Translations under genes and position numbers: made by a program
Part shown: in pieces, positions 18,911 through 36,035 of the stretch
Position numbering within the stretch: the stretch's first letter is position 1
Layout of the letters: every line of letters starts with the position of its first letter
The notes under the pieces: model-generated
The model's input: only the letters and a program-made list of their open reading frames with translations
Told to the model about the DNA's origin: nothing
Database searches by the model: none
Source: Planctomycetaceae bacterium
Lineage (GTDB): Bacteria; Planctomycetota; Planctomycetia; Pirellulales; Pirellulaceae
Direction: 5' to 3'
Length of the DNA: 46,577 nt
NCBI GenBank assembly: GCA_002724245.1
Contig: PBOG01000042.1
Coordinates: 1,974-48,550, forward strand

Positions 18911-21900
18911 ATGCGACTCTGTTTGAGCTATGGTCTTCTTTCACTGGTGTTGGCAGGTCATGGAGCCCATCGTTGCCTGGGGCAGGAGCCGCATCGATTC
19001 GACCAGGTGGTCGCGCCAATTCTGGCCAACCACTGCCTGGAATGTCACCGCGGGGCGGACGCCAAAGGTGGACTCGATTTGTCCCAGCGGGATGAAGCCC
19101 TCCGGGGCGGTGAGAGCGGACCGGCATGGCGGCCAGGAAAACCACTGGAAAGCTTGTTGTGGGAACGGGTTGCAAGTGGGGAGATGCCTCCCAGGAAACC
19201 ACTCCCGGAGAAAACCAAGGAGGTGTTACGGAAATGGATCCAGGACGGTGCCCCCTGGGGAACGAATCCAATTGACCCGTTTCGTTTTACTAACGAGAGT
19301 CGCGCAGGGCTGGACTGGTGGTCATTGCAGCCATTGCGCGACCCGCGGGTCCCCGCCGTAAAGACCCGAGATCGGGTTCGGAATCCGGTCGACGCCTTTA
19401 TTCTGGCGAAATTGGAGGCGGAACAGCTGGGGTTCTCAGAAGACGCCAGCCCACGTCAGTTGATCAGGCGTCTGTATCTTGATTTGATTGGATTGCCGCC
19501 CACGCCAGAGGCGGTGGCGAAGTTTGTTGAGGATCCGAGCGATGTGGCCTACGCCGCAGTGGTAGATCGTTTACTGGATTCCAGTCACTACGGGGAACGC
19601 TGGGGCCGTCACTGGCTGGATGTCGCACGTTTTGGTGAGAGTGACGGTTTTGAACGGAACGGGCCACGTAATCATCTTTGGCACTACCGCGATTGGGTGA
19701 TTGACGCGTTCAACGCGGATATGCCTTATGACGAATTTGCCCGCCTGCAGATCGCGGGTGACGTGCTGCGGAACAATGCGCCAAGCGGCCTGGCGGCCGT
19801 GGGGTTCTGGGTTGCGGGCGTCCATAACACGGTGGTCGGTGGCAGCGAATTCATGAAGCGGGTGGCCCGTGAAGATGAATTGGAAGAAATGGTGGGAGCA
19901 CTGGGCCAGACGTTCGTCGGCCTTACTTTCAACTGTAGCCGCTGCCACGATCACAAATTTGACCCGATTCGCCAACGCGAGTATTACCGGCTTACCGCTG
20001 CTATTTCGGGGGTCAGGCATGGTGAAAAAGAGGCGGTGGAGACACGTTTTCGTGACCAGATATCCGCTCTTGAGAAGGAACTCGATGCGCTCAATGGCGT
20101 CGTGAACAGACTGGAGAAGAAGGCGCGTCAAACAGTCCTGGCGGTACGCAAGAAAGAAGGCCAGAAACGAACGGTGCCTCCGCGGCCTTATGCGCGGTGG
20201 GAGTTCGAGTCGGATCTTAAAGACAGTCTGGGTGCGCTGCACGGCACTGCGCATGGATCCGCACGGGTTGAGAATGGTGCCCTGGTGCTTGGTGAGGAAA
20301 GTTATGTTGAGACAGCGACGTTGCCGACGGATGTCAAAGAGAAGACGCTGGAATCCTGGGTGCTGTTGGCCAATTTGAAACAGCGCGGTGGCTCGGCGCT
20401 CACGCTTCAGACCCGCAGCGGACTCGTGTTTGACGCGATTGTGTTTGGTGAACGCGAGGCAGGACAGTGGATGGCCGGTAGTGATGGGTTTGTACGCACC
20501 AAATCGTTTGCTGCTCCCGTAGAGACGACAGGCACCAAAGAGCCGGTACATTTTGCCATCGTGTATCAGGCAGATGGCACGATCACCGGTTACCGGAACG
20601 GCGTGCCGTACGGGAAACCGTACAAGAGTTCCGGTCTTCAACGATACAAAGCGGGTGACAGTACTGTCCTTTTTGGCTTGCGGCACAAACCGCCGGTTGG
20701 CCCGAATCGGTATTTGAGCGGAAAGATCTTGCGTGCCCAGTTGCATCTGAAAGCCTTGTCTCCGGCAGCGATTGCCGCTTCGGCGGGCGTGGAAAGCGAC
20801 TATGTCGCTGAGGAGGAACTCGTGGCGGCGCTGGCGCCGGCCGAACGTGGGCAACGTCGTGAGTTGGTGAAGCGACGTGCGGCGCTAGTGAAGCGGAAGA
20901 CGGAACTGCAATCCAATAGCAAGGTCAAGTTCTATACCGTGGCCCCGGGGAATCCCGGGACGACGTATTTTCTTCCTCGCGGTGACGTCATGAAGCGAGG
21001 CGAGGTGATGACGCCCGGTGCGGTGCGCGCAGTTCAGGGAGTGACGGCTGATTTTGGGCTGGCTGCAGACTCGACCGATGCGGCGCGGCGCGTGCGTTTG
21101 GCATCTTGGATTGCGGGTGACAAGAATCCGTTGTTCCCGCGGGTGATGGTGAATCGGCTCTGGCATTACCACTTTGGGACCGGGATCGTGGAGACGCCGA
21201 ATGACTTTGGCTTCAACGGAGGACGCCCGAGTCACCCGGAGCTGCTCGATTGGCTGGCGATTACGCTGCGACAAGGCGGCTACCGCCTGAAATCGGTACA
21301 CCGTGTGATCGTAACGTCCTCAGCCTATCGGCAGGCATCGAAATTTCGTCAAACGGCCCATGAACGGGATGCGGGGAACCGTTTGCTGTGGAGAAAGTCG
21401 CCCCGACGCATTGAAGCCGAGGTCTTGCGTGATTCGATCCTGGCGGTTGCCGGCAAATTAAATCTACAGGCAGGTGGTCCGGGGTTTGTGGACGTCTCGA
21501 TCACTCCGAACAACGGTACGACGTATTATGAACCGCTCGACAAAGAGGACGACCAGTTGCACCGACGAACGGTGTATCGTTTCTGGCCACGGGGTGGCCG
21601 CAGCGCATTGTTGGACACGTTTGATTGTCCCGATCCGTCGTCCACAGCGCCGCGCCGCACCGTCACCACGACTCCGTTGCAGGCGTTGAGCCTCTTGAAC
21701 AATAGCTTTGTTTTGCGGATGGCAGGCCATTTGGGAGAACGGGTTGGGCGAGAGGCGGGGGCCAACGCCGGGGAACAAGTGCGACGTGCTTACGAACTGA
21801 CACTGGGCCGGCGACCGGACGCGGAAGAAGAGCTGTTGGCAATTAAACTGGTGGAGCGTCATGGAGCCGCGGCACTGGGTCGCGCGTTGTTTAACAGCAA

Positions 21901-24486: not shown

Positions 24487-25833
24487 TCAGAGCAGTTCCG
24501 AAATTGCGGACGCGCCTGCTGGGAGCAAGTAATGCGGGCGGCCAGAATAGTCCGGGAACTGCAATGTGGCCGGTACGCCCAGGACGTGGAAGAGGGTTGC
24601 CATCAGGTCCTTGGGCTGGACCGGGCTGGAGGTCGGGAACTCGCCACGCGCTGAAGAGGTGCCGACAACTTGTCCCATCTGCAATCCGCCGCCAGCGAGA
24701 GCCAGGGTGGACAGCCCGGGCCAATGGTCGCGCCCCCCGAATGCGTTGATTTTTGGCGTGCGGCCAAAGTCGCCAGTCAAAACGAGGAGGATGTTCTTGT
24801 CCAGGCCACGTTCCGCAACGTCTTCCAGAAAAACAGCGAGCGCGTGATCGAGGGGAGGGCAGATTGCCTGGAGCTGTTGGCCCATGGGGGGGGCGGCTGG
24901 TTGGCTAGGACCGAGGTGCATGTCCCAGGCAAAAGGGGTTTTGGCCGGTTGGGGCGCCCAGCCATACGTTAAAGTCACAAAGCCGCAGCCGGCTTCACAG
25001 AGACGCCGTGCGGTAAGAAGTTGTTCACCCAGGCCGCCGCCATACCGGGCGCGGAGAGATGGGGTTTCCTGGGTCAGGTCGAATACGTCACGCGTTTTCC
25101 CAAGGATAAGGTCGGTTGCCTGTTGTTCGAATGCGTCCATGCCAGCCATCGCATCGGTTTGGTCCAGGTCCCGGCGCAGACGGTCCAGCTGGTGCAGCAG
25201 CCCGCGACGGTTTGCCAGGTGTTTGGGATCAACAGACAAGTTGAGGTTCCTTCGCGTACCACCCGCGACATCGAAGGGCGCGTTGGCGCGACCCAGCCAG
25301 AGCGGCTGGTCAAAGTCGAAACTCACGGTTGGTTTCAGCCGAACAAATGTCGGAATCCGTGTGCGAGGATGATTGGTGCCACGCACACGCGACGCGATGG
25401 CTCCGAAGGCAGGTTTGGTCTGTTGTTTGGAGCCGGCGGGGTTATCGTTGGCGGTGAGGACATAATGCGACGCGCCCAGATGGTCGGGATTGGTGTGGTG
25501 GAAAGAGCGTACGACCGCCATGCGATCGGCGCAGCCGGCAAGCCCGGGAAACAGCCCGCCGAATTCGACGCCGGGCAATCGTGTGGAGACCGCTCCGATC
25601 ATACTGCGGTAGTCAGCGGGCGCCTCCATCTTGGGGTCAAATGTCTCCAGATGGGGCGCACCACCCTGGAGCCAGACCCACACGACTGAGGTTTCAGGCG
25701 GGAACACTCGACCGGATGCCTGAGAACGCGCACGTAACAGATCCGAGAGGCCGATGCCCGCGGCGCCGAGGCTCCCTATCTGCATCGCGCTACGGCGGCT
25801 GATGTGCCGCGCTCCCGGGCGAACATGCTGCAT
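24487..25833 (-). CDS. DUF1501 domain-containing protein without adjacent cytochrome partner
   Basis: The product is 448 aa from ATG 25833. The leader HISRRSAMQIGSLGAAGIGL has the Arg pair at 13-14. Marks are WLQGGAPHLETFDPKMEAPA, RSFHHTNPDHLGASHYVLT, LLVLTGDFGRTPKIN, GRDHWPGLSTLALAGGGLQM and the PVQPKDLMATLFHVLGV end. It belongs to the same subtype as the truncated gene at the window start (GRDHW with a P.DL.AT..H.LG end), not the GRDHN subtype of the other DUF1501 genes here. No PSCyt1 gene lies next to it on its strand. The upstream neighbours are the palindrome and gene relic at 25941-26094. Confidence 0.9.
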   Translation of the reverse strand: MQHVRPGARHISRRSAMQIGSLGAAGIGLSDLLRARSQASGRVFPPETSVVWVWLQGGAPHLETFDPKMEAPADYRSMIGAVSTRLPGVEFGGLFPGLAGCADRMAVVRSFHHTNPDHLGASHYVLTANDNPAGSKQQTKPAFGAIASRVRGTNHPRTRIPTFVRLKPTVSFDFDQPLWLGRANAPFDVAGGTRRNLNLSVDPKHLANRRGLLHQLDRLRRDLDQTDAMAGMDAFEQQATDLILGKTRDVFDLTQETPSLRARYGGGLGEQLLTARRLCEAGCGFVTLTYGWAPQPAKTPFAWDMHLGPSQPAAPPMGQQLQAICPPLDHALAVFLEDVAERGLDKNILLVLTGDFGRTPKINAFGGRDHWPGLSTLALAGGGLQMGQVVGTSSARGEFPTSSPVQPKDLMATLFHVLGVPATLQFPDYSGRPHYLLPAGASAISELL

Positions 25834-25983: not shown

Positions 25984-26094
25984 TCAATCGATCTCCCAAC
26001 CCTTCCGGTAGACTGGGTGAATGAACTGGTCGGCATCGGGACAGTTGTGGGCTCGCATGTTTTCGCCGTCCCAGTCCAGGTGCTGTTGCGTTCC
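25984..26094 (-). pseudogene. C-terminal relic of a Gfo/Idh/MocA-type oxidoreductase (probable)
   Basis: The last about 36 codons before the stop at 25984 read HLDWDGENMRAHNC then DADQFIHPVYRKGWEID. This matches the typical end of planctomycete Gfo/Idh/MocA-family dehydrogenases (LxWDxxNxxxTNxPEAxxxxxxxYRxGW). Upstream of it no dehydrogenase sequence is recognisable in any frame: no Rossmann GxGxxG and no EKP motif. I infer a decayed or deleted gene of which only the 3' end remains. An annotation program might call a short hypothetical protein 26295-25984 here. The assignment rests on recall of the family ending, not on an alignment. Confidence 0.5.
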
Positions 26095-26410
26095 CGGGTT
26101 GGGAATCGAAGATCCGCCGTCGTCCAAGATACCACAGGCAGGCGACGGGCCGCCGCGTGCTGCAAAGACAACCTGGTCAGATGGCGGAATGTGAAAAGCT
26201 TCGTCGCACATTTCGGTGGCAGGCACGGTTGACCTGACGGCTCTTCGACGGACGACGGGTGGTAACCGGAAAGTCGCCCAGGAGAGTTGCCGCAACGCGA
26301 AAACTTTGCGTCAGGATTGTGTGTGCTTGCCAGGCCAGCCGAGAGGTGGCAGGGGGATTGGGGCAAGCATCTGGATGCGCCAGCAAACGCGACTTTCAGG
26401 TGCGCCGTGG

Positions 26411-27850
26411 TCAGAAGTGGCTTGGGGCCGCCGAGCGGAAGCCGTCCTTGCCGACGCTAGATTCTGCATGTTGTTTCACATGTTGCAGTACGCGGTGGTG
26501 AATGCGGTGAATGAGGAGATCCGACCACAATGTCCAGTAGGAATGGGGAAGCAATTCGAGTTGATACCAGGTCCTACCGATCAGTCGGGTTCCGCCATCT
26601 GCTGCGCGGTGGAGAATAAACTCGCCACGGGTACTGCGGAGTGCTCCATCCAAATGCGGTGGATGCAGGTCGTGGTAAGGACTGAGTTCAAACATGGGTG
26701 CGGGTTGCTGGGTCACATCAAATGCGAGCCGATACGGTGCATCCCACGCCGTGATGGGCTCTACAAAGACTCCGGTCGTAAAGATGCACCGACGTACAGC
26801 GCCGACGCCGGTACCGGAAATCTCGGCGCGGATTGGGCAGGCAATACCCCATCGGTAGTACCATGCCTGAGGTGGGGGCAAGTCCGGGAAATGGATGACG
26901 CAGTTCCAGACCTCGTCGATATCGGCTGCGACATGGATTTCCGTTTCCACGACCCATTCAGGCTCGGGGCGGGTGAGATGTTCGACTCCAGCGAGTCCGG
27001 GTAGCAGCAACAAAACCGCTGAGGTGCCGCGGATTGGCCGTCTGGACGTGTCGGCGAGAAGCTTTCCGATGGCACCCCCCAAAGCGCCCAACGGGAGGGC
27101 GAGTGGAGCCGCCATGGCGAGGCAGATGATTCCCTCCAGGGCGAACACCCACAGCGCGCCGCCGGCCAGGATGACTGAGAGCATTCCCAAATAAACACTC
27201 GTGGAGAGGCGGGTGGGGGCAGCGGTATTGGTGATGACGGATGCCACCGCACCCATCAAAATGGGTGTGCCCAGGAACAGCGAGCTGCCATAGGTGCCAA
27301 AGGTGTACACGCTGATGCCCAGCATTCCGAGCGCCAAAAGGAGTCCAACTGCCAGGCCAGCGAGCGCCGCGCGGTAATGAAGTACGGTGTGGCGGATCGG
27401 GGTGGATGGGGCATTCGCGGGAATAGACCGGCGATTGGGAAGCAGGGCCATGACCACCATGGTTACGAGGTTGACTGCTGGAATCAGGATCAAGAGACCG
27501 GGCCAGACACTGTAGCCAGCGCTGTAAGCGCGGCGGAGCGTCATGGTGACCGCAATCCACAGGAACGGAAGCGTCCAGAGGAACCAGGCCCAAGGCAGCC
27601 AATCGGGTGCCCCGCGAACCAGCTCCTCACGAGCTGCCAGGACTGGAGAAAAGAACTGCCATGGGGACATCGTCGTTCCGGCGACGAGGTACAGCACGCT
27701 GCGCTCGACGGTGTACTTGCCCAGCATGAGTGTGAGCCCTGAGACCGCGTAGTAGACGCGGGGCACATCTCGGGAAAAGCCGAACCACCCGAAAAATAGC
27801 CTGCGCATTGCGCCCAACAGACGAAGTGCCGGAGTGGAAACGGTAATCAT
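26411..27850 (-). CDS. Polytopic membrane protein with C-terminal SRPBCC domain
   Basis: The product is 479 aa from ATG 27850; an internal ATG at 27808 (Met 15) is also possible. About seven hydrophobic segments are visible (approximately 86-105, 112-137, 160-184, 189-207, 218-238, 240-262, 277-289). Residues 105-140 (RAYSAGYSVWPGLLILIP, then VMALLPNRR) resemble the end of DUF805-type membrane proteins. Residues about 300-475 form an SRPBCC (START-like) domain: VETEIHVAADIDEVWNCVIH, FEITAWD-like VEPITAWDAPYRLAFDV, and GGTRLIGRTWYQL. SRPBCC domains bind hydrophobic ligands in a deep pocket, so a membrane-tethered lipid- or ligand-binding role is plausible; no activity is assigned. It starts 63 bases after the chimeric gene on the same strand. 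Confidence 0.85.
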   Translation of the reverse strand: MITVSTPALRLLGAMRRLFFGWFGFSRDVPRVYYAVSGLTLMLGKYTVERSVLYLVAGTTMSPWQFFSPVLAAREELVRGAPDWLPWAWFLWTLPFLWIAVTMTLRRAYSAGYSVWPGLLILIPAVNLVTMVVMALLPNRRSIPANAPSTPIRHTVLHYRAALAGLAVGLLLALGMLGISVYTFGTYGSSLFLGTPILMGAVASVITNTAAPTRLSTSVYLGMLSVILAGGALWVFALEGIICLAMAAPLALPLGALGGAIGKLLADTSRRPIRGTSAVLLLLPGLAGVEHLTRPEPEWVVETEIHVAADIDEVWNCVIHFPDLPPPQAWYYRWGIACPIRAEISGTGVGAVRRCIFTTGVFVEPITAWDAPYRLAFDVTQQPAPMFELSPYHDLHPPHLDGALRSTRGEFILHRAADGGTRLIGRTWYQLELLPHSYWTLWSDLLIHRIHHRVLQHVKQHAESSVGKDGFRSAAPSHF

Positions 27851-27913: not shown

Positions 27914-28891
27914 TCAGGCTAGTAGTTGTTCCACAACCCTGGCGTTCGAAACCGGCGAGTCGGTGAGCGTTTCGTCGCGCCCGTGGTGGTGATAGGTGAG
28001 CGCATCGTGGTCGAGGCCCAGTTGATGCAGGATGGTCGCGAACAGGTCCGGGACGCTGACGGGGTCCTCTGTGGCGCGGTAGCCGACGTCATCGGTAGCG
28101 CCATGGATGTGGCCTGGTCGAAATCCGCCTCCGGCGAGAAGTGCCGTGAATGCGTTGCCATTGTGATCCCGGCCCAGACCATTTTGCGACACGGGCAAAC
28201 GTCCAAATTCACCCGTCCAGAGTACGATCGTGTCTTCCAGTAAACCCCGTTGGGCGAGGTCCTGTAGGAAGCCTGAGGTCGGCAGGTCCGTTTGCGCCGA
28301 GATCGTGGCAATCTCGTTTTTGACGTTGGCGTGACTGTCCCAGGGGGCACCGTTGAGAAATACGTGGACGAAACGGTCGACCATCGTCCTGGCTGCGGTC
28401 GTATGGTCTGATGACGGTGGCGGCATTCGTCGGAGCGGCTGAAAAGCCCAGTGGGATCGGTCCCCAGGGTCGATGGGGGTAATGCTGGCGGGCTCGGCAG
28501 GAACAGGCGGTTCCGCGCTGTCCAGCCACCGGCGCAGCGTAGTCAACTGTGCGTCGGTAAGGGGTAGTTCACCTTCAGGGGGCATGCTGCGTGAGGCAAC
28601 TTTGCGGTAGAGAAGACTGCGCGCTGCGCTGCCCGGTACGATGGCGGGACCTTGCGTGCCACCCTGCATGAGGAGTGGAAGGGTTCGCAAGTCGAGGTCG
28701 CCTGCGCGTTTTTCCAGACCATGACAACTCATGCAGTGCGCGCGGAGTAGGGGACGTACGTCGCGTTCGAAATGGACCGGTGTCGGGTCGGGGGGGATTT
28801 CCCCTGCCAGCGGGGCAGAGTTAATGACCCAGAGCCAGAGCAGGCTGGCGCAAGAGAGGGTAATGCTGGGGAAGGCTTGAAAACCGTGCAT
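27914..28891 (-). pseudogene. Chimeric open frame: PSCyt1 domain joined to the C-terminal part of DUF1501
   Basis: The frame encodes about 325 aa from ATG 28891 with a signal peptide at 1-30. Residues 40-172 are a normal PSCyt1 cytochrome domain (CMSCH at 53-57, MPPEGELPLTDAQ, HWAFQPLRRMP, ending MVDRF). From residue 173 the sequence continues as the C-terminal third of a DUF1501 protein (RFVHVFLNGAPWDSHAN, GEFGRLPVSQNG, GRDHNGNAF, GATDDVGYRATEDPV). The DUF1549 and DUF1553 domains and the DUF1501 N-terminus with its leader are missing. The simplest reading is an in-frame deletion of roughly 3.2-3.8 kb that joined two neighbouring genes. The reading frame is intact, so a product may be made, but both parental proteins lack most of their domains. 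Confidence 0.85.
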
Positions 28892-29177
28892 CGCTCTATT
28901 GTAGCCGGTGGCCAGCGAATCGGGCGAGGTCACGTGGCTCGCAAAAGGATCGAGATCGTGCTTGCGGCCCGCCTGGTTAGCCACTCCGGTGGCTTTACAT
29001 CGCTAGCGCTCCCACCTGGCAAGATGGAGACGCCGGATATGTGACGTTGGCAATGGCCCTCCAGTTGGCGCGCATCTCCTGGGGAGAAGTAATAGTTGAC
29101 TTGGCGCCCGTGCGGTGGCTGTTCTGCAGGTCGTCTGCGCAGCCAAACGAGATCTCTTTGAAACCGATAATGCGGAG
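28892..29177. other. Intergenic region upstream of the chimeric gene
   Basis: About 290 bases between the CocE/NonD-type gene and the chimeric gene, both minus strand. No gene is supported. It may hold the original promoter of the PSCyt1-DUF1501 module, but no clear promoter hexamers were seen. Confidence 0.4.
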
Positions 29178-30992
29178 TCACCGAAGGAGCGGCAAGGTGA
29201 CATGGGAAGGACGATTCGCATCGTGGTAAATGGAGGCCTTGGCGGTGAGAACGTCGGCGTGAAACGGTCCTTTGCCGGTGTTGGTGTTCCGGTCATAGAT
29301 GGGGAAATAGCTGCCCTGGATGTGGACTTCCAGGCGATGGCCAGATGGAAGCGTGGCGGCACAATCACCGATGTCAATCGAGAGGCGGTAGACTTTGCCG
29401 GGTTCAACGGGGCTCCGGTGTAACGTGGACTCGCGTGCGGTGGCACGGAGGATGCCCGTGGCCAGTGGGTGGCGAAAGCCGTCGGGATGGATGTCGAGCA
29501 CCATCGCCACCAGGTCAAAATCAGGGGTGTTGGCGGAAGCGTAGACGACCGCCTGTAGGTTACCGGCGAGTGCGAGTGGTTCGGCGAGCGGTTGGGTTGT
29601 ATAGGCCAGAACGTCAGGCCGCGCAGCGGCAGCTTGCTGGTCGTATGGCCCGAACCCATCGAGGTAGGCGGCACCGTGAAAGGGTGCCGACGGGACCGGA
29701 TTGGCGGGGTCGGAAACCAATTGCGTCGGTGGGTTAGGGCCGTGCTGTGGCGTCTTGCGCAATGACCCTGCCTCGCCAGGACGCTGGTCTGTTTCGTGTG
29801 CATGCAGGTAAAAGGGGACGGGGTAGGTGGACGCCGGCGGCCAGGCAGAGGATTCCCTCCATTTGTTGATGCCCATCATGAAATATCGTACGCGAGGATA
29901 GGGGACGCTTTTCTGCTTCCCTTTGAACCAGCGGTCATACCAGATGAGATTCTCGGACACGATGTCGAGCTGTGCTTCCTTGCCAAAGACGACATCGCCG
30001 GCCCGATCACTTCCGGTGGCATGGTCCCAGGGACCCAGAATCAGTTGCTGGTTATCGCGTGCGTGTTGGCTGGCGGCCTGCGTCCGCATCCCATGGTAAG
30101 CACGTAAGGCACCTGCGCACATGAAATCGTAACAGCCAACGATGTGCTGTGCCGGGAAGTCCATGTCGGAGAAGTTGCGGGCGTCGGTGCCTTTCCAGAA
30201 GCCGTCTGGGGTAATGTGTTTGATCATACTCATCTGGAGCGGCGCCGGGTGGCCAACGACACGGTCCAGGCTCATCAAGGGGAGTGTCAAGTACCACTGG
30301 GGCCATCTGGGGGACGCCCCCGCGGAGGTTGGAGGTCCATAGACGTTGGCCCCAAACCCGGCCCGACCTAGCGCCAGGATATAGGCCCCGCCGCGGTAGA
30401 TGTTACTGTAGAAATACGGTACCGCTGCAGTGGGGGCCAGAGCGTCGAGTTGTACGCGTGTGCTGGCGGTGAGCCACTGAGAACTCCCCATGTAAGAGGC
30501 GCCCCACATACCCACACGACCGTTGCACCAAGGTTGTTCGCGAATCCAGGTGACGGCGTCAAAACCATCGGCAGCCTCGCCCCAGTAGAGATTGAATTCC
30601 CCTTCGGATCCATTGCGGCCACTGCTGTCTTGCGTGACTGCCACATAGCCGCGGGCGGCGATGCGGCGTGCCTGCTGCTCAAATCCCGCCGTACCGTAAG
30701 CCGTTTTTAGCAGCAGTACCGGGAGTGGAGTGGTGATGCCCCGTTGGCGATAAATTCGAGTCCGCAGACGGGTGCCATCCCGTGTCGGCATGGGCTCGAT
30801 GTCGACTGAGATATTGTCCTGGGAGATCGCCGTGTGCGTGGTTACCAGTGCGCCGCAGAGCAGTGCCCAGCTCCAGAACATCAACTGCCTGCAGTGAGGG
30901 CGATTGGCGGTACAGATCTGCGGTATTTCTTCGCCGCCGGGCTGCTGGTGGGAGTCTGTTGGCGTTCCCACTCGTGTATCTGAGCGTTGCAT
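29178..30992 (-). CDS. CocE/NonD-family hydrolase (X-Pro dipeptidyl-peptidase-like), exported
   Basis: The product is up to 604 aa. ATG 30992 gives the full frame; ATG 30881 (Met 38) starts directly at the hydrophobic leader MFWSWALLCGALVTTHTAIS, and neither has a strong ribosome site. An alpha/beta-hydrolase domain follows (about 60-345): EPMPTRDGTRLRTRIY, DSSGRNGSEGEF, the nucleophile in GMWGASYMGSS (Ser 166), GCYDFM (Asp 289) and LGPWDHATGS (His 324). The C-terminal about 230 residues form the beta-rich domain typical of CocE and PepX proteins (DFDLVAMVLDIHPDG, HRLEVHIQGSYFPIYDRN). Relatives cleave esters, amides or peptides; this one is probably periplasmic or secreted. It lies upstream of the chimeric gene on the same strand but 286 bases away. 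Confidence 0.9.
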   Translation of the reverse strand: MQRSDTRVGTPTDSHQQPGGEEIPQICTANRPHCRQLMFWSWALLCGALVTTHTAISQDNISVDIEPMPTRDGTRLRTRIYRQRGITTPLPVLLLKTAYGTAGFEQQARRIAARGYVAVTQDSSGRNGSEGEFNLYWGEAADGFDAVTWIREQPWCNGRVGMWGASYMGSSQWLTASTRVQLDALAPTAAVPYFYSNIYRGGAYILALGRAGFGANVYGPPTSAGASPRWPQWYLTLPLMSLDRVVGHPAPLQMSMIKHITPDGFWKGTDARNFSDMDFPAQHIVGCYDFMCAGALRAYHGMRTQAASQHARDNQQLILGPWDHATGSDRAGDVVFGKEAQLDIVSENLIWYDRWFKGKQKSVPYPRVRYFMMGINKWRESSAWPPASTYPVPFYLHAHETDQRPGEAGSLRKTPQHGPNPPTQLVSDPANPVPSAPFHGAAYLDGFGPYDQQAAAARPDVLAYTTQPLAEPLALAGNLQAVVYASANTPDFDLVAMVLDIHPDGFRHPLATGILRATARESTLHRSPVEPGKVYRLSIDIGDCAATLPSGHRLEVHIQGSYFPIYDRNTNTGKGPFHADVLTAKASIYHDANRPSHVTLPLLR

Positions 30993-31147
30993 GGGAAAAC
31001 CTGCGTGGGGAGGAGGCCCGATGATGGCTGGGAACAGCGGCTGGTGTACGCCAGAAGTGTGACGGCCCGTCGCAGCGGTGCGTGGGGTGGACTATAACGA
31101 CTGAAGCGGCGCCCAGCGAGTAGGCTGAGATTGAGTCACAAGAGAGG

Positions 31148-33263: not shown

Positions 33264-36035
33264 TCAATCGATAAAAAGAAACTCGTTGCTGATCAATAAC
33301 ATTTGCGCCAGATTGGGGAAATCCAGCGTGCCTTCCACGAGCCCCTGGTGGCAGCGTGCCGTTTCGTCCGGTGTGGGATGTCGGCCCAGCGTGACCTGGT
33401 AGAGGGATTGGATTACCGCTTCCGTGGAGTGTGCGCCAACACGCGTCGCAGCGTCCTGGGCGCGCAGGGCGACGCCGGCAGCCCGTTGTTGCACAAACGC
33501 GTTATTCATCAAGAACAAGGCTTGCTGGGGCGCGGTGGTGTTGGACCGAGTTGGACTATGCGTGTCAGGGCTGGGGAAATCAAACAACCGTAGGATGGTT
33601 GGAAGTCCGCTGCGATCGATTCGGCCATAGATGCTTCGTCGTGTATTGCCGGCCTCCAATAATTCGACGGGAGGCCCCTGCATCTGCAGGTCGAGTTGTC
33701 CGGCTACGGAAAGCATGGAGTCACGCAGGATCTCGAAGTCCAGGCGGCGACGGCGGTAACGCCACAGGAGCTGGTTTTCGCTGTCAACTTGGCGGGCGGC
33801 CGGCCGATCCCGGCTGGCTTGTTGCCACGTTTGTGACAAGAGAATCTGGCGGTGGAGCCGCTTGATCGACCAGCCGTGGTCGATCAAATCCGATGCCAGG
33901 TAGTCGAGCAAAAGGGGGTGGGTCGGTGGGGTGGCGCGGAGGCCAAAATTACTCACCGTGGCAACTAGTCCGCGACCAAAATGGTGTGCCCAGATGCGAT
34001 TGACTACGACACGGGCAGTAAGAGGATTACGGGGATGGGTAATGGCGTCAGCCAGTTCACGTCGACCGCTACCCCTGGTGAATGGAACGGAGAGTTCGGG
34101 CCCCAGTACGCGCGGCGCGGCGCGTCTCACCGCGCGGCCGACACGTTCCGGGTTGCCGCGGACAAAGATATGGGGTTCATGCACGCGTGGTGAATCGTAG
34201 AGCACATGGGCGCGCGGGGCGGCTCGGCCCGTTCCCGCAAGCCAGGCGTCGTAGTCAAGATAGGCCTGGGAAAGGGCGCGGTTCCATTCGGCGTCGAGAA
34301 GGTAGGCGTCAAGTGCTTCCCGTGGAGAGACGGCGAAGGGCGAACCCGGCCCGTAAAGTACGGATCGCAGCTGTTCCTTGCTGGGGTCCCGAAAGGTGGT
34401 GAAGTCAGGATCGGTTTGCAGTGCGGCGCGGGTTTCTCGGTGAATTGCCAGCAAGGCCTGACCGTATCGATCTGCGATGTCTCGCATGGTCGCTGGCGGA
34501 TTAGCTGCGATTTGGTCGAGAAGGAACTGGTTGAGTGGCTGGGGCGCCGCTGCGGTAAGACGCGCGAGCGTGGAGCGATATTGGCGGGAGAAGTCGGCAG
34601 CGGGAAGGGCACGCAGCGCGTGCCATGGTGCAAAGACGGGGTGAAAAGACCGTTTGGTGCCTTCGAGATACTCCACCCAGCGTTCGACGAACGTTTGCCG
34701 GAGTTCGCCCTTGGCGGCCGGCAGCGGAACCAGGAAGGTCTTCCGGCCGGCTAGAACTGCCCGCAGATATCTCGGGGTGTCGGCCCGTAACATCTCCAGG
34801 GTCGGTGGCAGATATTGTTGGATTTGTTTGTCGAGCGTGTCCCGTTTCTGTTGGTAGAGTGCGGAGTTGCCCTGGAACGTGATCGGCTGCGGAGTTGTGG
34901 AGCGGGTAAGGAGGTAGGGCAGGTCGGACGGCTCGACGGTATTGGAGAACACGCCGTACAACCCGTAATAGTCGGCCGTTGGGATGGGGTCGAACTTGTG
35001 GTCGTGACAGCGTGCGCAGCTGACGGTAAGGCCGAGGAACGTCCGCGTGACGACATCAATCCGGTCATCGATCACGTCATGCTGGTTGCCTGTGAACCGG
35101 CGGCCGAGCGTGAGAAAGCCGAGTGCGGCCAGAGCGCTGCGGTCCCCTCCTTTGGGAAGGAGTTGATCGCCGGCCAATTGTTCACGCACGAAACGGTCGT
35201 AAGGCATGTCGCAGTTCCAGGCGTTAACCACATAGTCGCGGTAGGTGTACGCATAGTAGTAGTTCTTTTGTTCCTGGAGACGCACGTAGCCTTTGGTGTC
35301 GGCGTACCTGGCAAGATCGAGCCAGTGCCGGGCCCAGCGCTCGCCGTATTGAGGCGATGCGAGTAAACGGTCCACGAGGCGGGCCATGGCCATGTCGGGG
35401 TGTGACTGGAATGCGCGCTGAAACCGATCGCGCGCCTGCGCCTCGGGTGGTAAACCAGTGAGGACGTAGTGAACACGGCGCATTAATGTGTGCGCGTCGG
35501 CGGGTGGCGAAAACGTCAACTGACGGGCCTTAAGTCGGGCAGCAATGAAGCGGTCAATGGGAGAGGCCTCGGTGCCGGGAGGTAGCACAGGTCTGGCAAA
35601 GGGCGTCGCGGCCCAATGTGAGTCCCAGGCGGCGCTGGGAGATACCGGGTTGTTTTCTCCAGGGGTCTTGGGCCAGGGGGCTCCGGCCAGAACCCATTGC
35701 TGCAAATCCCGCACTTCGTTCGCGGCAAGGCGGCGATTGGGTGGCATCTGCAGGTCGCCCTTGTACTGGATTGCCAGCAGTAAGGGGCTGGCATGTGTCT
35801 TGCGGAGGAGAACGGCAGGGCCTGCCAACGTTCCACCCGCGAGGAGGTGTTCCCTGGAATCCAGCCGCAGACCACTTTCCTGTTTGCCAGGCCCGTGACA
35901 GGGAATGCAATGGTTTACCAGGATCGGCCGTACGCGCCGCTCAAAGTGTTCGAGTTCGGGTTCCTGTGCGAAACTCGGAACGGCCGTTAGGCTGAGCAAG
36001 GCGATCAGTGAAAATAGAATAAAGCCAGAAGACAT
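33264..36035 (-). CDS. PSCyt1/DUF1549/DUF1553 surface protein without LamG domain
   Basis: The product is about 923 aa from ATG 36035, which opens a signal peptide (MSSGFILFSLIALLSLTAVP). The frame runs on to 36332 but that extension is basic and lacks a leader. PSCyt1 has CIPCH at 43-47 and MPPNRRLAANEV. DUF1549 follows (ASPIDRFIAARLK, QYGERWARHWLDLARYADTK, CARCHDHKFDPI). In place of a LamG domain the middle holds about 240 residues of mostly helical sequence (YQQKRDTLDKQIQQYLPP, RAALQTDPDFTTFRDPS). DUF1553 closes the protein (NPLTARVVVNRIWAHHFGRG, FDFPSPDTHSPTRSNTT). It is fourth in the operon, 121 bases after the HEAT gene. Confidence 0.92.
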   Translation of the reverse strand: MSSGFILFSLIALLSLTAVPSFAQEPELEHFERRVRPILVNHCIPCHGPGKQESGLRLDSREHLLAGGTLAGPAVLLRKTHASPLLLAIQYKGDLQMPPNRRLAANEVRDLQQWVLAGAPWPKTPGENNPVSPSAAWDSHWAATPFARPVLPPGTEASPIDRFIAARLKARQLTFSPPADAHTLMRRVHYVLTGLPPEAQARDRFQRAFQSHPDMAMARLVDRLLASPQYGERWARHWLDLARYADTKGYVRLQEQKNYYYAYTYRDYVVNAWNCDMPYDRFVREQLAGDQLLPKGGDRSALAALGFLTLGRRFTGNQHDVIDDRIDVVTRTFLGLTVSCARCHDHKFDPIPTADYYGLYGVFSNTVEPSDLPYLLTRSTTPQPITFQGNSALYQQKRDTLDKQIQQYLPPTLEMLRADTPRYLRAVLAGRKTFLVPLPAAKGELRQTFVERWVEYLEGTKRSFHPVFAPWHALRALPAADFSRQYRSTLARLTAAAPQPLNQFLLDQIAANPPATMRDIADRYGQALLAIHRETRAALQTDPDFTTFRDPSKEQLRSVLYGPGSPFAVSPREALDAYLLDAEWNRALSQAYLDYDAWLAGTGRAAPRAHVLYDSPRVHEPHIFVRGNPERVGRAVRRAAPRVLGPELSVPFTRGSGRRELADAITHPRNPLTARVVVNRIWAHHFGRGLVATVSNFGLRATPPTHPLLLDYLASDLIDHGWSIKRLHRQILLSQTWQQASRDRPAARQVDSENQLLWRYRRRRLDFEILRDSMLSVAGQLDLQMQGPPVELLEAGNTRRSIYGRIDRSGLPTILRLFDFPSPDTHSPTRSNTTAPQQALFLMNNAFVQQRAAGVALRAQDAATRVGAHSTEAVIQSLYQVTLGRHPTPDETARCHQGLVEGTLDFPNLAQMLLISNEFLFID

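Follow-up and report, generated by a model that had tools for sequence, protein, structure and literature searches.

The locus described here raises the question whether a short frame joining the beginning of a planctomycete cytochrome gene to the end of its DUF1501 neighbor is a deletion scar, a retained new protein or an assembly artefact. The frame (P0001) occupies positions 28891..27914 on the minus strand of the window, i.e., the whole analyzed stretch of 46,577 nucleotides from a Planctomycetaceae bacterium (assembly GCA_002724245.1, contig PBOG01000042.1), and encodes 325 aa plus a stop, with no internal stop; an alternative GTG start at 28984 would give a length of 356 aa. We favor, with a probability of roughly 75%, a real deletion-born fusion that is probably a recent scar.

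The fused frame and the intact locus in relatives

P0001 is a PSCyt1 domain fused in frame to the last third of a DUF1501 domain, and its sequence across the junction reads TMVDRFVHVFLNGAPW. A putative signal peptide is followed by PSCyt1 with the haem motif CMSCH, a linker and the DUF1501 part. With Pfam, PSCyt1 was matched at aa 53–107 over its entire 59-position profile, while the DUF1501 match at aa 173–323 covered only positions 245–389 of the 390 that make up the whole domain, leaving an incomplete DUF1501 protein. DUF1549 (PSCyt2) and DUF1553 (PSD1) were absent from P0001 in the same search, and NCBIfam gave no match for the four proteins searched.

The sequence-only reading had proposed an in-frame deletion between a PSCyt1 gene and its DUF1501 neighbor, a view that a sister strain with both genes intact at this locus would favor. 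An intact pair was indeed found between the same neighbors, albeit in a congeneric species rather than a sister strain, on contig PAQH01000063.1 of the metagenome-assembled genome SP141 (L031). The left parent is an 878-aa PSCyt1-DUF1549-DUF1553 gene, the right parent a 479-aa DUF1501 gene, and the contig has the order and orientation of the window: Peptidase_S15, PSCyt1-DUF1549-DUF1553, DUF1501, membrane protein, ThuA, GFO/IDH/MocA and a second DUF1501-like gene. Two intact minus-strand genes serve as synteny anchors, namely the upstream Peptidase_S15/PepX_C gene (29178..30992; 84% aa identity to L031 138–1949) and a downstream putative membrane protein (26411..27850; 87% to L031 6383–7834). 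By blastn, window positions 28370–31123 aligned on L031 2768–6 (2754 bp) on one flank of the junction, and 26381–28382 on L031 7852–5851 (2002 bp) on the other, with an offset of 3095 bp between them. Both parents are recognizable, in order, with the intervening DNA gone: on the minus strand, the left part (28376..28891; P0001 aa 1–175) is 80% identical in amino acids to L031 2247–2771, the N-terminus of the PSCyt1-DUF1549-DUF1553 protein, and the right part (27914..28369; P0001 aa 173–325), the final third of DUF1501 together with the native stop, is 94% identical to L031 5858–6316. The left break falls approximately at the start of DUF1549, the match to which begins at aa 171 of the parent.

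Further intact copies were present in other relatives. A second, partly syntenic cluster of SP141 (PAQH01000025.1, L032) has the intact pair, with a 1237-aa frame between the end of the S15 gene and the pair. The two cluster copies of the SP141 draft are ~75% identical in nucleotides and represent either a true duplication or a mixed bin; in comparison, the window's own genome has a single match to the membrane-protein marker. Another genome of the window's genus (G002) has the coordinates of L031 and an identical DUF1501, and was counted with SP141 as one genome. In the congener G001 (L048), the DUF1501 gene of this cluster is intact, and the contig edge preserves the C-terminal 94 aa encoded by the DUF1553 gene, which are 51% identical to their L031 counterpart. 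The nearest intact pair found outside the genus was that of a family relative (G003, L061; 10383–7738 and 7709–6273). The membrane protein had no match in G003; its pair is homologous and may or may not occupy the same locus. Judged from this distribution, the unfused pair is ancestral and the fusion derived, since the pair is intact in L031, L032 and L061 and the DUF1501 of G001 is intact as well.

Scar or retained protein

The rival reading that survives best, which we nonetheless regard as improbable, accepts the deletion and holds that selection has retained the fusion as a small, exported haem protein whose C-terminal domain is new. Occurrence of the same short fusion in several independent genomes would, according to the earlier reading, point to such a selected protein. 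With the fusion protein as query, we searched 60 relatives, 392 genomes from the phylum (E cut-off 1e-40) and 241 from the family (1e-52). These three sets overlap, each includes the window's own genome, and every species is represented by one genome, sister strains lying outside the sample. Matches occurred in 91 of the 392 and 27 of the 241 genomes, and at most 37, 5 and 9 candidates per genome were scored among the relatives, the phylum and the family, respectively. Among the matches listed in the three sets, no gene combined PSCyt1 and DUF1501 apart from the window's own, which counts against a kept protein; DUF1501 alignments extended back to aa 142 at most and PSCyt1 alignments forward to aa 182. 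At equal similarity, a fused relative would score higher than a DUF1501 gene and should therefore rank near the top of its genome, although a distant one could have been missed.

Several candidates were rejected. Junction-spanning matches in L038 and L028 belong to a DUF1501 gene whose upstream part was aligned by chance, and the one in L034 consists of two separate segments. Among short DUF1501 frames, that of L058 (G003) has a run of unread bases inside and that of L059 (G007) is interrupted by a break of frame; the frames examined leave out L060 (G007), G050, G613 and others. In L059 (2571–4004), DUF1501 is divided between two frames (341 and 135 aa), by either a frameshift or a sequence error, and an intact PSCyt gene adjoins. 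In the own genome, eight PSCyt1 frames shorter than 700 aa besides the fusion came from 150 scored matches (210 candidates): three run off their contigs (L063, L068, L069), four, of 470–512 aa, carry apparent WD40 repeats after PSCyt1 (L064, L065, L066, L067), and the last has a pair of CXXCH motifs and a different tail. As far as they are readable, none of these eight is a DUF1501 fusion.

The expected properties of the product were considered next to those of the intact parent. The AF2 model of the parental DUF1501 (mean pLDDT 87.4) matched the alkaline phosphatase superfamily, with Z 19.0 for both 7cba_A (rmsd 3.1, 241 aligned) and 5too (rmsd 4.5, 281 aligned), and Z 16.8–19.0 for NPPs, PafA and sulfatases in the best 50 rows. 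With Foldseek, sulfatases were the top matches (E 6e-7), and the TM-scores of only 0.31–0.37 over the query in the best 50 rows confine the likeness to the core fold. Sequence searches for solved relatives of both intact parents gave none at E 0.01 and 0.1. Unlike members of this superfamily, the fusion has only about residues 327–479 of the 479-residue parent, i.e., a fragment without the N-terminal two thirds that a complete fold would need. It keeps W338, D339, H341, D396 and H397 of the parent, as well as all 23 C-part residues invariant among 37 aligned DUF1501 proteins, and is without the other 22 of the 45 invariant residues, all of which lie N-terminal of the junction. An active enzyme of the alkaline-phosphatase fold is unlikely to be formed, because the N-terminal part with these 22 residues, the twin arginine among them, is gone.

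The AF2 model of the fusion itself had a mean pLDDT of 58, with values of 50–66 over aa 231–250, a poor prediction that speaks against a kept protein; only C-part rows were supplied, so that the N part is effectively a single-sequence prediction whose low confidence means little. The PSCyt1 half carries the marks of a c-type cytochrome, namely CXXCH, a later conserved MPP and the full profile, and might form a haem protein, given that C53, C56, H57, M103, P104 and P105, invariant in 13 PSCyt1 rows including P0001, are all retained. The predicted product, if made at all, would be an exported single-haem protein with a fragment of an alkaline-phosphatase-like fold attached, probably without a selected function of its own. 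Retention of CXXCH and MPP is also what a kept protein would have, as is the open frame, whose ATG is shared and lies in a 76% identical stretch. Moreover, PSCyt1 has other C-terminal partners in the same genome, as seen in the frames with apparent WD40 repeats.

Substitution rates bear on both readings. By the Nei-Gojobori method, dN/dS between the window and L031 was 0.064 over the 151 codons of the C part and 0.235 over the 171 codons of the N part, against 0.026 and 0.225 for the matching parts of L031 and L032. After polarization with outgroups, with codons undecided by any outgroup left out, the ratio of nonsynonymous to synonymous changes in the C part was 5/16 on the window branch vs. 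2/11 on that of L031, and in the N part 12/17 vs. 14/11, whereas neutrality over the whole branch would predict 47.6 (C) and 49.1 (N) nonsynonymous changes. Both halves align to L031 without indels. Going by these counts, the fused frame shows no neutral-like decay, and a neutral scar must, for that reason, be young. If constraint ended at the deletion, the event would belong to the most recent 15% of the branch leading from the SP141 split, or 18% once two undecided C-part changes are counted, as one-sided 95% bounds with the two halves pooled; the single halves give 19–25% (C) and 22% (N), all with baseline ratios of 0.035 and 0.225 that we chose from the dN/dS results. In simulations, a stop-free frame of the length of P0001 persisted in 42% of 1000 runs when the neutral distance was 0.035 per site, compared to 1.2% when it was 0.2.

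Relaxed constraint is not clearly seen in either half, as a kept protein would have it, but a young scar predicts the same rates; the frame may be either a young scar or a constrained frame, and the rates fit both equally. At seven of the nine residues by which the C part differs from L031, L032 agrees with L031, which hints weakly at relaxation on the window branch. The fused frame is most likely a recent scar and not a new working protein. That it is still open would be explained by the one-in-three chance of such a deletion preserving the frame and by the recent date that the rates suggest.

Junction, missing DNA and a possible artefact

Read on the minus strand from 28380, the window has TCGACCGTTTCGTCC, where L031 has TCGACCATTTCTTGA in the left parent and GCGTCCGCTTCGTCC in the right parent. 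The longest stretch assignable to either parent is CCGTTTC (28370..28376, minus strand), corresponding to CCATTTC on the left and CCGCTTC on the right. The codons of R173-F174-V175 lie at 28375..28367, as had been stated before. The proposed nine bases of microhomology did not hold, in that the parents read VDHFLI and VRFVHV, so V fits the right parent only and R is unassignable. Given the L031 parents, the junction requires a minimum of one base change after the event, and the shared tract may thus be anywhere between 0 and 7 bp. The related claim that intact modules of the window carry DRFI or DRFV is right for the genes at 33264 (DRFI) and 38832 (DRFV), whereas the one at 18911 has DAFI.

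Microhomology as a proof of mechanism was rejected. The best 7-bp window of L031 at the junction matches at five of seven positions, equalled by 6.7% of 20,000 random pairs, and the longest exact run is 3 bp (24% of random pairs); identity at 9 of 15 positions was reached by 0.7%, in a window chosen after seeing the junction. A deletion via short homology is plausible, and the tract of 0–7 bp is weakly supported by these comparisons. RecA-independent joining or replication slippage at short similar sequences would probably account for the event.

About 3.1 kb is missing between the two remnants, slightly less than the 3.2–3.8 kb estimated earlier from the intact pairs of the window. As synteny shows, a single deletion of this size in the lineage of the window genome removed most of both genes, ending at the DUF1549 start of one and two thirds into the adjacent other, and joined the remainders in frame. 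Translation would then reach the DUF1501 gene's own stop, which lies 63 bp short of the next gene, and this ending in frame has probably spared the intact downstream gene polar effects. The deleted 3071 bases had 46 matches of 65–84% identity in the own genome, the top-scoring one being 676 bp at 67%. The only close match of the 878-aa parent there was the window fragment 1–175 (80%), with the next best long copy 42% identical. Neither nucleotide nor protein queries found an orthologue of the missing 3.1 kb elsewhere in the window's assembly. The loss would be tolerable because the genome (G000, 7.8 Mb) contains no fewer than 127 DUF1501 matches above the cut-off, drawn from 361 first-look candidates and covering nearly the full profile, and at least 150 scored PSCyt1 matches.

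The same assembly is a draft of 287 contigs (rated 98.8% complete, 3.29% contamination), and the junction lies inside a gene family with very many paralogues. Both leave room for an assembly or binning artefact hiding an intact pair in the real genome. We consider this very unlikely. The L031 parents share no exact run longer than 3 bp at the junction, far below the word lengths with which assemblers work, both flanks keep the L031 order at similar divergence (dS 0.42–0.75 in seven comparisons), and the missing 3.1 kb was found on no other contig. The reverse scenario, in which the short fusion came first and an insertion or rearrangement later produced the intact pair, can practically be dismissed, the halves of the fusion being parts of two standard adjacent genes that are intact in three related clusters, with the many nearly full-length DUF1501 matches of the window's genome pointing the same way.

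Relation to known fusions and erosion of the cluster

The fusion is of a kind already described. Deletion-born gene fusions have been reported across bacteria (Kaul, Rossine, Brinda and Baym, 2026, preprint, PMC12803068), where a deletion ending inside one or both genes gives a chimeric open reading frame and the split state is ancestral, both as in the window. Two fusions of the M. bovis complex described there lost the catalytic motifs of their parents, and one, acrR-glcD, came from a 2 kb deletion. Those cases stem from deeply sampled isolates, whereas the present fusion is in a single draft planctomycete genome and, unlike them, joins two adjacent genes of one module; the strings "Planctomycet" and "microhomology" do not appear in the text of the preprint. 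Both parents belong to planctomycete-specific cytochrome modules, of whose PSCyt genes nothing was said to be known functionally, with a role in carbohydrate metabolism suggested (PMC5615132). DUF1501 has no occurrence in the main text of that paper, while its pairing is seen in the window and the other loci; from the PSCyt1-DUF1549-DUF1553/DUF1501 pair, the fusion retains only PSCyt1 and the last third of DUF1501. Searches of the mostly freely accessible literature on PSCyt/DUF1501 modules, planctomycete domains, deletion-born fusions and short-repeat deletion did not turn up this fusion.

It documents a deletion-made fusion beyond the deeply sampled species from which such events have been catalogued, together with the intact ancestral locus and with further deletions adjoining. 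If the frame were selected, a new domain combination would have arisen in one step within a family of more than 100 paralogues, a natural and catchable birth of a two-domain protein from an expanded planctomycete module. As a scar, the fusion shows how cytochrome/DUF1501 modules erode and cautions that a short PSCyt1-DUF1501 frame is not necessarily a stable family.

Erosion is also visible beyond the membrane protein, where 577 bp in the window, compared to ~2.5 kb in L031, separate it from an intact second DUF1501-like gene (24487..25833, minus strand; 93% aa identity to L031 10336–11697). The interval holds remnants of ThuA and GFO/IDH/MocA genes (25987..26399, minus strand) that are intact in L031: ThuA pieces from within aa 213–288, which lie in two frames, and the C-terminal 34 aa of GFO/IDH. 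Two deletions of ~0.6 and ~1.3 kb (in L031 coordinates) formed these remnants and, together with the one behind the fusion, make at least three in the cluster in this lineage. By these comparisons, the gene cluster around the fusion is eroding. The ThuA piece, at ~70% identity and with gaps at 17 of 197 alignment columns, looks older than the fusion. The membrane protein between the two eroded sites has a relative, P0002, with weak, sub-cut-off matches to Polyketide_cyc2 and DUF805.
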